Assembly (NCBI RefSeq): GCF_000517545.1
Contig: NZ_BAIV01000026.1
Coordinates: 1-64,000, forward strand
Length of the DNA: 64,000 bases
Reading direction: 5' to 3'
Source of the DNA: Bacteroides reticulotermitis JCM 10512
GTDB lineage: Bacteria; Bacteroidota; Bacteroidia; Bacteroidales; Bacteroidaceae
Numbering within the stretch: the stretch's first letter is position 1; each line of letters begins with the position of its first letter. The notes beneath the pieces are model-generated. The model made no database searches. It was not told where the DNA came from and was given only the letters and a program-made list of their open reading frames with translations. Position numbers and translations under genes: made by a program. Positions 20,886-31,186 of this stretch are shown piece after piece.

Positions 20886-21926
20886 TTAGATGGTAATTTC
20901 GCCCGCAATGGATTGATTCATACGTTCGCGCACCTCATCGGGCGTATACCCATGTCCGAGTAAGAACATTAATTTGGTGACAGCCGATTCGGTTGTGCTG
21001 TCATAGCCGCAGACAACGCCTGCTTGTATCAGTTGATAGCCTGTCTCATACCGCTCCATCTCTACGGTACCAGCGTTGCATTGTGTGACGTTGACTATGA
21101 CGATGCCTTGTTTGCTCGATTCACAAAGTCGGCGTATGAACCATTCCTTGCGAGGAGCGTTTCCCGATCCATAGGTTTCCAGTACAATTGCTTTTAATCC
21201 TTCAATCTTTAAGATAGCCGTAATCACATTCTCCTGAATGCCGGGGAAAAGCTTGAGTACAACCACATTGGTATCTAGCAAATAATGAGGTTTCAACTCG
21301 CTATCTTCCGTGTAAGAGTCAATCTGCAAGTTTTTGTATTTGATGTGAATCCCGGCTTCGGCCAGCACCGGATAATTAAACGAACGGAATGCGTTGAAAT
21401 TCTCCGCATTCATCTTTGTTGTACGATTACCTCTCATCAGGTGATTCTCGAAGAAGATACAGACTTCCGGAACCAGCGGTTTGCCTTCACCATCATGTGC
21501 GGTGGCTATCTCAATGCTTGTCATTAGATTTTCTTTACCATCGGTCCGGAGTACACCGATCGGCAGTTGCGAGCCGGTGAGAATAACAGGTTTGGTCAAT
21601 CCTTCCAACATAAAACTTAAAGCGGAAGCGGTGTAAGCCATTGTATCTGTCCCATGCAAAATAACAAACCCATTATAGAGATGGTAATTATCGTTTATGA
21701 TTCGAACCAATTTCCGCCAAGCCTCCGGCTCCATGTCGGAAGAATCCATTGGAGGATCGAACTGATAAGTGACGATCGGGAAGTTAAATTTTTGCAATTC
21801 GGGAATATGTTTCTGTAATTGCTCAAAATTGAAATTCTCTAATGCTCCTGTTTCGGCATTTTCAATCATACCGATTGTTCCGCCGGTGTATATTAACAAA
21901 ACGGAAGCGTTTGGGTTTGTTGTCAT
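20886..21926 (-). CDS. ansA: type I L-asparaginase
   Basis: Hydrolyses asparagine to aspartate and ammonia. The 346-residue protein shows both catalytic Thr motifs: LLIYTGGTIGMI near residue 10-21 and LHGTDTMAYTASALSFM around 93-109, followed by PVILTGSQLPIG. There is no signal peptide, so it is the cytosolic type I enzyme, which generally has low affinity and is allosteric. A regulatory C-terminal domain with TQCNAGTVEMERYETG is present. It is a single gene with its own terminator, upstream of and divergent from the threonine operon. Asparaginase supplies aspartate, the precursor of the threonine pathway, but no shared control is visible. Confidence 0.9.
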   Translation of the reverse strand: MTTNPNASVLLIYTGGTIGMIENAETGALENFNFEQLQKHIPELQKFNFPIVTYQFDPPMDSSDMEPEAWRKLVRIINDNYHLYNGFVILHGTDTMAYTASALSFMLEGLTKPVILTGSQLPIGVLRTDGKENLMTSIEIATAHDGEGKPLVPEVCIFFENHLMRGNRTTKMNAENFNAFRSFNYPVLAEAGIHIKYKNLQIDSYTEDSELKPHYLLDTNVVVLKLFPGIQENVITAILKIEGLKAIVLETYGSGNAPRKEWFIRRLCESSKQGIVIVNVTQCNAGTVEMERYETGYQLIQAGVVCGYDSTTESAVTKLMFLLGHGYTPDEVRERMNQSIAGEITI

Positions 21927-22087
21927 CTGGTTTTAAACTGTATTATTCGCAAATATAAGAATATGTTTTATAAAAATGTAGCAAAGTGTCATAAAAATAA
22001 GGGGGCTATAGGGGGTGCTGAGGATTGAAATGATTCTTTTTATTAGAAAATAATCGAAAAAAGTGATAGTTTGAATGTTTTTATTAT

Positions 22088-22095
22088 TACTTTTG
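22088..22095 (+). promoter_or_regulatory. -7 box of the threonine operon
   Basis: TACTTTTG is a perfect TAnnTTTG box. It lies 36 bases before the leader-peptide ATG, so the leader would be on the thrA transcript. A TTTG at 22070-22073 is too close (14 bases) for a canonical -33 box. Confidence 0.5.
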
Positions 22096-22130
22096 CGACA
22101 CTTATCAAAACAAATGTAGAAAAAAGGTAT

Positions 22131-22190
22131 ATGATGAAGTACTATCCGCATACAGTCACATCCATGTGCACCACCACCCTTAGGGGTTGA
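22131..22190 (+). CDS. probable threonine operon leader peptide
   Basis: A 19-residue frame (MMKYYPHTVTSMCTTTLRG) lies between the operon promoter and thrA. Five of its residues are Thr, including three ACC codons in a row just before the end. It is preceded by AAAAAGG, a possible ribosome site 6 bases upstream. A Thr-rich short peptide upstream of aspartokinase-homoserine dehydrogenase is the layout of transcription attenuators such as E. coli thrL. The sequence itself is unlike thrL. A second Met follows the first. The call rests on composition and position only. Confidence 0.55.
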   Translation: MMKYYPHTVTSMCTTTLRG

Positions 22191-22236
22191 GGATAGTATT
22201 TGTGTATCTACGTGATTCACGCCTATAAGACTAGGC
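22141..22236 (+). promoter_or_regulatory. candidate attenuator structures in the thr leader
   Basis: AGTACTATCC (about 22138-22147) can pair with GGATAGTATT (22191-22200), one G-T pair, enclosing the Thr codons of the leader peptide. Downstream are CGTGATTCACG (22211-22221) and GCCTA-TAAGAC-TAGGC (22221-22236), the last followed by AAAAACAATTTTTAATTT. A ribosome stalled at the Thr codons would block the first long pairing, as attenuation requires. The terminator hairpin is not textbook, because the T run starts 8 bases after the stem. Confidence 0.35.
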
Positions 22237-22324
22237 AAAAACAATTTTTAATTTATTCGTAAACAATCAATCGTCCTGTATTTAAAAGTGATTACACAGG
22301 GCATTGTATTAAATAAGTATCTTC

Positions 22325-24759
22325 ATGAAAGTAATGAAATTCGGCGGGACATCCGTAGGTTCCGTGGACAGCATTTTAAGCGTAAAGAGAATTGTTGAGT
22401 CGGCCAACGAGCCGGTTATTGTTATTGTTTCCGCTTTGGGAGGCATAACCGACAGATTGATTAACACATCGAAGATGGCAGCCACCGGTGACCCGGCTTA
22501 CGAAGGAGAATTTCGTGAGATTGTTTTTCGCCATGTAGAGATGATTAAAGAAGTTGTTCCGGCTGGTGAAAGGCAAGTAGGGTTGTTGCGACGTATTGGT
22601 GAACTGCTAAATGAACTGAAAGATATTTTTCAGGGAGTTTATCTGATCAAAGATCTCTCTTCAAAAACAGCCGATACCATTGTAAGTTATGGTGAACGAT
22701 TATCGTCGGTCTTGGTTGCCGAACTGATCGAAGGAGCCGAATGGTATGACTCACGTACCTTTATTAAAACTGAAAAGAAACATAATAAGGATACACTGGA
22801 TGTAGACCTTACCAATAGTTTGGTGAAAGCGGCTTTTCAAAAGATACCGAAAGTGGCTTTAGTGCCGGGATTTATCTCTTCGGACAAGACAACCGGAAAC
22901 GTGACCAACCTGGGACGTGGAGGTTCCGATTATACCGCTTCTATCATTGCAGCAGCGCTTGATGCCAATAGTCTGGAGATCTGGACTGATGTGGACGGCT
23001 TCATGACTGCCGATCCGCGGGTTATCTCTACCGCTTATACGATTGCTGAATTGAGTTATGTAGAAGCGACCGAGCTTTGTAACTTTGGCGCTAAAGTGGT
23101 TTATCCGCCAACCATCTATCCGGTCTATCATAAAAATATTCCTATATTAATAAAGAATACGTTTAATCCTGACGGTGTAGGCACTGTTATCAAGCAAAAT
23201 GTAACCAGTCCGGAATGTAAAGCGATTAAGGGTATCTCGTCTATCAACGATACAAGCCTGATTACCGTACAGGGACTCGGTATGGTAGGGGTAATTGGTG
23301 TCAACTACCGCATATTCAAGGCGCTGGCTAAAAACGGAATCAGTGTATTCCTTGTGTCGCAAGCTTCTTCGGAGAACAGTACTTCGATTGGCGTGCGTAA
23401 TGCCGATGCCGATCTTGCTTGTGAAGTCCTGAATGATGAATTTGTCAAAGAGATCGAAGTTGGAGAAATCTCGCCGATCTTGGCCGAGAGAGATCTGGCT
23501 ACGGTAGCTATTGTAGGCGAAAATATGAAACATACACCGGGTATTGCCGGTAAGTTGTTCGGTACATTGGGCCGCAATGGTATTAACGTGATAGCTTGTG
23601 CACAGGGAGCTTCGGAAACCAACATCTCGTTTGTAGTCGATTCTAAGTCCTTGCGCAAATCGCTCAACGTAATTCATGACTCTTTCTTCCTCTCCGAATT
23701 CCAGGTACTGAACCTGTTTATTTGTGGAGTGGGTACGGTAGGAGGAAGCTTGGTTGAGCAGATTCGAAGCCAACAACAGAAACTTATGGTAGAAAATGGC
23801 TTGAAGCTGCATGTCGTAGGTATTATCGATGCTTCGAAAGCGATATTCAGCCGTCAGGGATTTGACTTGGCTAACTTCCGTGAGGAACTCAAAGATAAAG
23901 GAAAAGAAAGCTCGTTGGAAGCCATTCGCGAGGAAGTGGTCGGCATGAATATCTTCAACTCAGTATTTGTTGACTGTACTGCCAGCCCGGACATTGCTTT
24001 GCTCTATAAGGATTTCTTGCAACATAATATTTCGGTGGTAGCTGCCAATAAGATCGCGGCCTCTTCGGCTTACGAAAACTACCGGGAACTGAAAACAATT
24101 GCCCGCCAACGTGGTGTGAAGTTCTTGTTTGAAACTAATGTTGGAGCCGGACTCCCAATTATTAACACTATAAACGACCTGATTCACAGTGGAGACAAGA
24201 TATTGAAGATTGAAGCTGTTCTTTCGGGTACGCTGAACTATATCTTCAATAAGATCAGTGCCGATATTCCTTTTAGCCGTACCATCAAGATGGCGCAGGA
24301 AGAACGGTACTCCGAACCCGATCCACGCATCGACCTGAGTGGTAAAGATGTGGTTCGTAAACTGGTGATTCTGGCTCGTGAGGCAGGTTACTGTATTGAG
24401 CAGGAAGATGTGGAGACCAATCTTTTTGTACCGACTGATTTCTTCGATGGCTCGTTGGATGACTTCTGGAAACGTGTACCGAGCCTGGACGCTGACTTTG
24501 AAGCACGCCGCCAAGTCTTAGAAACAGAACATAAGCATTGGCGTTTTGTTGCCAAGTTAGACAATGGCAAAGCATCCGTAGGCCTGCAGGAAGTAGGAGC
24601 CAATCATCGTTTTACGGCTTGGAAGGTAGTAATAATATCATCCTATTGACGACCGAGCGCTACAAAGAGTATCCGATGATGATTCAGGGATACGGTGCCG
24701 GAGCCGATGTAACAGCTGCCGGAGTATTTGCCGACATCATGAGTATTGCAAACGTTTAA
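22325..24759 (+). CDS. thrA: bifunctional aspartokinase / homoserine dehydrogenase (frameshift)
   Basis: Catalyses the first and third steps from aspartate to homoserine. Restored, it is 811 residues. The aspartokinase domain begins [13 protein letters not shown] and contains [15 protein letters not shown]; two ACT domains follow (about 310-450), the likely site of threonine feedback; the dehydrogenase domain starts with the NADP fold [17 protein letters not shown] (about 461-477) and has [14 protein letters not shown]. The open frame ends at 24649 because one C is missing at about 24608 (CATCG where CATCCG is expected); restoring it gives [21 protein letters not shown] and the normal end IMSIANV. 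It is first in the operon with the mutase-like gene (11 bases on) and thrC. Confidence 0.93.
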
Positions 24760-25992: not shown

Positions 25993-26025
25993 GTGCAAGT
26001 TGTAGCGCAAGAAGAAATAACGATT

Positions 26026-27327
26026 ATGAATTATTATAGTACAAACAAGCAAGCGCCGATGGCTTCGTTGCAAGAAGCTGTTGTGAAAGGGCTTGCTTCC
26101 GATAAAGGGCTTTTTATGCCTGTAACCATCAAACCACTTCCGCAGGAGTTCTACGACACGATCGATACGCTGTCTTTCCAAGAGATAGCCTACCGGGTGG
26201 CAGACGCTTTCTTTGGCGAAGACATTCCGGCCGATATCTTGAAAGAGATCGTATACGATACGCTCAACTTTGATGTTCCTTTGGTACAGGTGACGGAAAG
26301 TATCTATTCGTTGGAATTGTTTCACGGACCGACACTGGCTTTCAAAGACGTAGGCGGACGCTTCATGGCCCGCCTATTGGGTTACTTCATTAAGAAAGAA
26401 GGACAGAAAGATGTGAATGTACTGGTGGCTACCTCCGGAGATACGGGGAGTGCTGTTGCCAACGGATTCTTGGGCGTAGAAGGTATTCATGTATATGTGC
26501 TCTATCCGAAAGGAAAAGTCAGCGAAATACAAGAGAAGCAGTTTACGACACTGGGACAGAATATTACGGCTCTTGAGATAGACGGAACGTTCGACGATTG
26601 CCAGGCTTTGGTGAAGTCAGCGTTTATGGATAAAGAATTGAACGAACACCTTTCGTTGACTTCTGCCAACTCGATCAATGTAGCCCGTTTCTTGCCGCAG
26701 GCTTTCTACTATTTCTATGCGTATGCCCAGTTGAAACGTGCCGGAAAAGCAGACCAATTGGTTGTCTGTGTGCCTAGCGGAAACTTCGGTAACATTACTG
26801 CCGGATTGTTCGGCAAACGGATGGGCCTTCCCGTGAAACGCTTCATTGCAGCTAACAACCGCAATGACATATTCTTCCAGTATCTGCAAACGGGCCAATA
26901 CAATCCTCGCCCGTCTATTGCTACGATTGCCAATGCCATGGACGTAGGCGATCCGAGTAACTTTGCTCGCGTGCTCGATCTGTATGGAGCTTCTCATGAA
27001 GCGATTACCGCCGATGTTTCGGGAACTACGTATACCGACGAGCAGATTCGGGATACTGTAAAGGAGACATGGGAGAAACATCAATACCTGCTCGATCCTC
27101 ACGGTGCATGTGGTTATCGTGCGTTGGAAGAAGGTTTGCAAGCCGGCGAGATCGGTGTGTTCCTTGAAACCGCTCACCCGGCTAAGTTTCTGGAAACAGT
27201 GGAAGCCATCTTAGGTGAAAAGGTAGAGGTGCCTGTCAAACTACAAGAGTTTATGAAGGGAGAGAAGCAAAACCTGTCGATGACAAAAGAATTTGCGGAT
27301 TTCAAGAACTACCTGCTTGCTCTCTAA
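26026..27327 (+). CDS. thrC: threonine synthase
   Basis: Converts O-phosphohomoserine to threonine with pyridoxal phosphate. From ATG 26026 the protein is 433 residues, beginning MNYYSTNKQAPMASLQEAV, the usual start of the E. coli-like class; an upstream in-frame extension to 25993 has no coding support. The cofactor lysine is K107 in HGPTLAFKDVGGRFMARL. VLVATSGDTGSAVANGF and PSGNFGNITAG are the phosphate-binding and substrate loops. It is the last gene of the operon, 33 bases after the mutase-like gene. No clear terminator was found except the palindromic array beginning 44 bases downstream. Confidence 0.95.
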   Translation: MNYYSTNKQAPMASLQEAVVKGLASDKGLFMPVTIKPLPQEFYDTIDTLSFQEIAYRVADAFFGEDIPADILKEIVYDTLNFDVPLVQVTESIYSLELFHGPTLAFKDVGGRFMARLLGYFIKKEGQKDVNVLVATSGDTGSAVANGFLGVEGIHVYVLYPKGKVSEIQEKQFTTLGQNITALEIDGTFDDCQALVKSAFMDKELNEHLSLTSANSINVARFLPQAFYYFYAYAQLKRAGKADQLVVCVPSGNFGNITAGLFGKRMGLPVKRFIAANNRNDIFFQYLQTGQYNPRPSIATIANAMDVGDPSNFARVLDLYGASHEAITADVSGTTYTDEQIRDTVKETWEKHQYLLDPHGACGYRALEEGLQAGEIGVFLETAHPAKFLETVEAILGEKVEVPVKLQEFMKGEKQNLSMTKEFADFKNYLLAL

Positions 27328-31086: not shown

Positions 31087-31103
31087 TTCGTTAATTTGTT
31101 AGT

Positions 31104-31186
31104 TCTCTACGCCGGCATTACCCGGTTCAGATTCCATGGGTATGTTCTCAGCCCGTCATATTAAGGCACCCCTACTCAGCGAATCG
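31104..31186 (-). promoter_or_regulatory. TPP riboswitch (THI box)
   Basis: Read on the minus strand, the segment holds the conserved aptamer blocks in order: AGGGGTGCC, GGGCTGAGAA, ATACCC, GAACC-GGGTAATGCCGGCGTAG. These form the TPP sensor helices. It sits 17 bases before the receptor start codon, so ligand binding most likely controls translation or early termination of the whole thiamine operon. High TPP should shut the operon off. Confidence 0.95.

Follow-up and report, generated by a model that had tools for sequence, protein, structure and literature searches.

The thr operon and its leader region

The window, the whole stretch of DNA analyzed here, comprises 64,000 nucleotides of Bacteroides reticulotermitis JCM 10512 and carries the thr operon: thrA, then a broken gene of the PhosphMutase/Metalloenzyme type, which we take to be the homoserine kinase gene, and then thrC. 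Frame changes at about 24583–24649, about 24950, and about 25620 break thrA and the gene next to it, whereas thrA of close relatives is open over approximately 815 codons. Short radA-like and response-regulator frames nearby (by eye) suggest indel errors of the draft assembly. An L-asparaginase gene (20886–21926) is transcribed divergently from the operon, and the intergenic region may thus serve both. Elsewhere in the window, a TPP riboswitch (31087–31183, minus strand) directly precedes a gene that appears by eye to be TonB-dependent receptor-like. The features of the thr region are as follows.

22088–22095, plus strand: -7 promoter box TACTTTTG, of the Bacteroides type TAnnTTTG
22114–22120, plus strand: strand 0 (ATGTAGA), shortly before the leader start, complementary to the S3 loop and the adjacent part of its 5' arm (TCTACGT)
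22131–22190, plus strand: leader peptide frame MMKYYPHTVTSMCTTTLRG (codons 22131–22187) and its stop codon (22188–22190), conserved in relatives
22140–22147, plus strand: strand 1, TACTATCC, the Tyr-Tyr-Pro codons, pairing with strand 2
22152–22178, plus strand: putative control codons Thr8, Thr10, Met12, and Thr14–Thr16
22176–22187, plus strand: hairpin Sc, ACCC(TTAG)GGGT, the last four codons before the stop, nearly invariant among relatives
22191–22198, plus strand: strand 2, GGATAGTA, beginning directly after the stop codon and pairing with strand 1
22202–22220, plus strand: hairpin S3, GTGTATC(TACGT)GATTCAC, with a TACGT/C loop in 57/58 leaders and partial covariation
22221–22236, plus strand: hairpin S4, GCCTA(TAAGAC)TAGGC, adjoining S3, present in 32/58 leaders, with two-sided changes in 5/5 counted pairs
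22245–22249, plus strand: T tract, 8 nt 3' of S4
22325–24741, plus strand: thrA, aspartokinase-homoserine dehydrogenase, presumably the gene under control, with the reading frame broken within about 24583–24649
25993–27327, plus strand: thrC, threonine synthase, downstream of thrA in the same direction

A preliminary description of this DNA had proposed a 19-residue frame downstream of the operon promoter with five Thr codons, three of them in a row, and we confirmed this frame at 22131–22187, between the -7 box and thrA. Its 19 codons include five for Thr (starting at 22152, 22158, 22170, 22173, and 22176, the last three consecutive) and one internal Met codon, and the peptide has TTT where TMT stands in most relatives. 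The conserved Met is an addition to the earlier account, which named Thr only. The proposed pairing around the Thr codons was likewise found: codons 4–6 are paired to the first eight bases 3' of the stop codon, and the stem therefore encloses the Thr codons (eight Watson-Crick pairs, or 11 with the adjoining G-T, A-T, and A-T). All 11 strand 1:2 pairs are contained in the MFE fold (227-nt fold, z = -2.2; 5/200 shuffles as stable). The further hairpins announced ahead of thrA are present at 22202–22220 and 22221–22236, the second ending exactly where the previously described feature ends. The Sc hairpin of the window, taken alone, has p = 0.17.

Conservation of the leader frame and of RNA structure

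We located thrA in 30 loci from 61 genomes, the window's own included, and in 80 loci from named genomes, and searched upstream of it for a frame ending T-L/P-R-G or close to it. Such a frame precedes thrA in 65 of the 110 loci (65 of 111 entries, the window being counted twice; L031, missed by the pattern, was added), including loci titled Bacteroides, Phocaeicola, and Mediterranea, and 58 distinct leaders, L031 not among them, were analyzed. No such element was seen in the upstream sequence examined (for some only 211–700 nt) of the other 45 loci, which are mostly titled Prevotella, Paraprevotella, Prevotellaceae, or Bacteroidaceae; it occurs in none of the loci titled Prevotella or Paraprevotella among the 110. 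Leader-less loci also occur within the group (L013 and L030 of the window's genus, L052 of Mediterranea, and L054 of Phocaeicola coprocola), and of five further loci of the same genus, L166 has a leader, while none was seen in L167, L169, L170, and L171. Thus, this form is not common to all Bacteroidales. The conservation of frame and Thr codons that was to be checked across that order holds for the orthologous leaders of the Bacteroides group (58 distinct leaders), but fails for some loci of the group and for all loci titled Prevotella or Paraprevotella.

The peptide consensus is M-N/M-x-Y-Y-P-H-T-V-T-S-M-C-T-M-T-L-R-G. Lineages differ in its length and sequence but retain Thr and Met: each of the 52 distinct peptides contains three or more Thr, and 51 contain Met beyond codon 4. 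In the 58 distinct leaders, Thr makes up 23.6% of residues in the frame versus 5.3% and 3.0% in the other frames, and Met 13.3% versus 0.1% and 0.2%; Ile shows the reverse (2.2% versus 11.1% and 5.9%). Against dinucleotide shuffles, a Thr-rich frame is found at P<0.05 in 56/58 distinct Bacteroides-type loci, compared with 36/250 upstream stretches of other genes, which were scored in nearly the same way (over 330 rather than 320 nt and with somewhat broader length limits) and include one listed frame, in L069, that is itself a thr leader. A TAnnTTTG box, presumably the consensus of the Bacteroides-type -7 box, lies 28–49 nt ahead of the leader ATG in 58/58 distinct leaders versus 2/49 control stretches. 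The stretch from the hairpins to thrA diverges widely among the 58 leaders (by eye). Six Phocaeicola-like leaders (L053, L057, L059, L062, L063, and L064) encode longer peptides, in which Ile, Gly, and Met occur and Thr residues are fewer.

In the window's genome, the leader pattern has one exact match, and the model marks only the site before thrA at E<0.1. When 15 weak order-level model matches were inspected singly, L123 and L127 were found to precede an aspartokinase gene; no link to a thr gene was seen in the others.

Conserved RNA structure overlaps and follows the leader frame. We counted the helices on named columns in 47 out of 57 distinct shorter sequences. Sc, S3, and S4 together covary, with two-sided changes in 8/16 pairs and 46 cells versus 20.4 in shuffles; 0/500 shuffles, in which kinship is not corrected, reach this level, and slid controls are lower. 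In S3, 3/7 pairs show two-sided changes in the 47 sequences, and two of the middle pairs are open in 19 and 26 of them, respectively. Sc gives no covariation evidence in the Bacteroides group because it is nearly invariant. RNAalifold on the full alignment returned only seven pairs, one with a two-sided change, probably owing to the variable length of the coding part. For strand 1:2, the native partner beats permuted partners (0/500 as good). Counted from the first stop-codon base, the S3 arm begins at a distance of 8–20 bases, and of 13–16 in 46/58 leaders.

Strand 0 forms a duplex with S3 that averages -8.8 kcal/mol over the 58 leaders versus -5.7 kcal/mol with shuffled upstream sequence; here too the native partner beats permuted ones (0/2000), and L014 and L071 show matched changes. 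This 0:3 duplex is an alternative to S3, with which it competes. In the clade of the window it has lost strength: the window and the four relatives examined for this carry a change in the S3 arm that weakens it without compensation, and the consensus S3 arm is a better partner for their strand 0 than their own, while S3 itself still pairs.

Leader codons and pathway layout

One homoserine dehydrogenase was found in the window's genome, thrA itself; its two matches are one broken gene and were counted once. Since thrA should then also supply methionine, sensing of Met by this leader, in addition to Thr, appears probable. We counted homoserine dehydrogenases in 34 genomes and in 87 of another order, some belonging to both sets. 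Among 38 leaders passing the filter, Met occurs in the last 18 residues of 13/13 with one enzyme versus 4/25 with two (Fisher p = 4e-7, kinship not corrected; by family, 4/4 versus 2/8, p = 0.06). Ile runs opposite to Met, occurring in 5/13 leaders with one enzyme and 21/25 with two. The clearest contrast lies within family f134: g275, with one enzyme, has Met in or beside the Thr run, whereas g220 and g303, with two, do not, except for an outlying Met of L200 outside the Thr/Ile run, which was counted against the rule. No leader was seen in G707 of the same family, which has two enzymes. Family f166 goes against the rule, with two enzymes and yet one Met in each of three leaders.

The filter (P<=0.02 for the Thr-rich frame) removed 48/86 loci, 29/42 with one enzyme and 19/44 with two, and many genomes of either kind therefore have no leader visible to this test. 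L002 (P 0.03) and L003 (P 0.025) were kept by hand. Some left-out loci agree with the rule, namely L141 and L254 (one enzyme, Met) and L206 (two enzymes, no Met). L237 was lost before the filter since its thrA start was not found, and the second homoserine dehydrogenase of G058 is a fragment at a contig end. Threonine as a sensed amino acid is supported, but probably not threonine alone; the in-frame enrichment and the enzyme copy number point to Thr together with, probably, Met.

We surveyed 296 genomes of the class and examined a subset of their thrA places, namely 28 loci and 42 stretches before thrA, together with 18 stretches of the initial genome set. In 36/85 distinct loci, thrA is preceded by a Thr-rich frame at P<0.05 (two Bacteroides-type loci set aside, five of the window's genus still included), compared with a like score in 36/250 upstream stretches of other genes; at a score of >=1.5, the counts are 24/86 loci versus 5/250 control stretches. 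The frames of other families sit in quite different RNA sequence. Ten leaders of family f157 (L164, L165, L198, L204, L205, L207, L212, L213, L214, and L218) have classical anatomy, with Thr and Ile codons and a canonical terminator 32–49 nt from the stop. The end of their frame complements the 5' arm of the terminator at -7.5 to -14.8 kcal/mol (a value without shuffled control); by eye, L207 and L214 depart from the other eight on both sides of this pairing, and the changes match. The two leaders compared with Rfam, L205 and L213, had no match there. A stop-codon hairpin at p<0.05 is present in 19/28 leaders outside f157 versus 0/10 within it; these hairpins differ in sequence between families (e.g., L247, L250, L162, L163, L186, L193, L199, L202, and L263). 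In family f105, L140 and L141 have a strong hairpin without a U tract 3' of the thr leader stop (by eye).

Proposed mode of action and relation to known systems

All 58 distinct leaders are short frames with codons for pathway products, located before a biosynthetic gene. In view of the conserved frame in Bacteroides and its counterparts in other families, the leader is very probably a translation-based sensor of Thr and Met, of a kind well known elsewhere, and on the sequence evidence we consider it likely that it controls the thr operon in cis in response to Thr. With the control codons inside the stem and strand 2 where a terminating ribosome would sit, the layout is consistent with sensing of Thr and Met by the translating ribosome. 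With ample charged Thr-tRNA, and probably also Met-tRNA, the ribosome would reach the stop codon and cover strand 2, S3 (with S4 or the following U tract) would form on the nascent RNA, and transcription would end or stall ahead of thrA. A ribosome halted at the Thr or Met codons would disfavor S3, and transcription would continue. The least certain step is the last one, in which S3/S4 might stop RNA polymerase alone, do so with Rho, or act on RNA stability.

For intrinsic termination at S3/S4, we regard the chances as even. A consensus scan of 22000–22400 found no terminator-like site, and no pairing of strand 2 with S3/S4 of the f157 kind was seen (by eye). Equilibrium folding with a ribosome mask (three footprints, two transcript ends) gave S3 a value of 0.71–0.76 in the window with the ribosome at the stop codon for two footprints and the longer transcript, versus 0.01 for the third footprint; over the 58 leaders, S3 rises and falls about evenly under this mask, with no consistent rise. 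Because the results changed with the footprint, we draw no support from the folding model. The layout of amino acid attenuation given in the preliminary description therefore stands as a sensing leader peptide for the thr operon, while a search of the window for the classical terminator/antiterminator pair gave none, and we assign the leader to the leader-peptide kind, not to the classical attenuators.

A sizable minority chance goes to an otherwise identical sensor of Thr/Met whose output is a Rho-loading, pausing, or RNA-cleavage site, exposed or hidden by the ribosome and signaled by S3/S4. The scan result is in line with such an output, as are the strong hairpins of L140 and L141 and the T tract of S4-type leaders, which begins no more than 3 nt from S4 in just 3/32 and is displaced in 29/32. 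It fits less well with the leaders without S4, in 22/26 of which four consecutive T begin no more than 3 nt from S3 (background 6%), with the U tract that does follow S4 in L053, L059, L063, and L138, and with the canonical terminators of the related family f157. That a structured RNA sensing a metabolite or protein is the functional part and the frame incidental is unlikely: the S3 loop and Sc are almost invariant and S3 covaries in part, but the Thr and Met enrichment is restricted to the leader's own frame, thrA of other families is preceded by Thr-rich frames in quite different RNA, and codon choice tracks pathway layout. Even less probable is a small functional peptide acting in trans; its sequence is conserved, yet length and sequence vary between lineages while Thr and Met stay, and the model matches only the one site in this genome. 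A chance frame without function, a reading favored by the Thr-rich frames at P<0.05 in 36/250 control stretches, is already contradicted by conservation across loci (56/58 distinct Bacteroides-type loci, the conserved peptide, and the covarying hairpins) and can practically be dismissed.

Returning to the translation-based sensor, we tentatively propose, at a little short of an even chance, an old thr leader of Bacteroidia whose amino acid vocabulary changed along with the layout of the pathway. It would read Thr, in most cases plus Ile, in genomes whose second homoserine dehydrogenase can supply methionine, and Thr plus Met in those with thrA alone. In Bacteroides and several other families, the switch would be a stop-codon hairpin, not a canonical terminator, and in Bacteroides also a UACGU-loop hairpin competing with the strand shortly before the leader start. 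In the gut, Bacteroides are dominant bacteria, and a leader reading Thr and Met would provide a direct, testable rule for their thr operon. If leader codons track homoserine dehydrogenase copy number, pathway wiring could be read from a frame of 20 codons, and the lack of a canonical terminator raises the question of how attenuation works in the phylum Bacteroidota.

An Rfam search with the window and nine relatives found no family that fits the leader. RF00506 (Thr_leader) is not among the window matches at the gathering score, nor at E<=5 in 21930–22330; RF01692 (Bacteroid-trp) has no match in the window, and the one match of this genome is on another contig. Our literature search on leader-peptide attenuation in Bacteroides returned no thr case, the most relevant survey lying outside its reach, and three strings of the leader peptide did not occur in the literature searched. 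In its main text, PMC7366714 notes that short frames in B. thetaiotaomicron 5' UTRs resemble attenuation leaders, and the word threonine is absent from that text. PMC7903761 reports eight new small proteins of B. thetaiotaomicron of at least 32 residues, so the thr leader peptide is not among them as far as that partial list goes. The main text of PMC2965389 has no entry for Bacteroides or threonine, and PMC4833913, in the part available, treats leader genes in Bacteroidetes in general terms only.

The enterobacterial thr attenuator (thrL, RF00506) has a canonical terminator. It shares with the window a Thr-rich leader peptide before thrA in the same operon, but the window leader has Thr and Met codons and an unrelated peptide and does not match RF00506. 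The E. coli attenuator responds to Thr and Ile, according to PMC12925634. The f157 leaders likewise have a Thr-rich peptide before an aspartokinase-homoserine dehydrogenase thrA; they differ in having Ile instead of Met, a canonical terminator with a 5' arm complementing the frame end, no significant stop-codon hairpin (10/10), and two homoserine dehydrogenases. Vitreschak et al. (2004) reportedly predicted Thr/Ile/Met attenuation of a single thrA in Pasteurellales, which, though in another phylum, resembles the window in that the control codons include Met and no bifunctional enzyme other than thrA is present. That work is also said to mention attenuators in Bacteroidetes/Chlorobi; it may already list Bacteroidetes thr attenuators, and part of the present picture was then possibly predicted there.

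The nearest catalogued relative of the thr leader is the Bacteroidete trp leader, RF01692, which stands among the candidates of PMC2864571. Its match in this genome (L226, G000 contig C64) has the frame MRTMLVNTYWWWHPLQLRQS, with a WWW peptide, before a trpB-like gene. Unlike the thr leader, it has Trp instead of Thr/Met and is followed by a GC-rich hairpin and a U tract (by eye), which the window thr leader is without. The two leaders of the same genome are alike in their short frame with a run of product residues, the stem around the control codons, the hairpin after that stem, and the biosynthetic gene (trpB by eye) that comes next.
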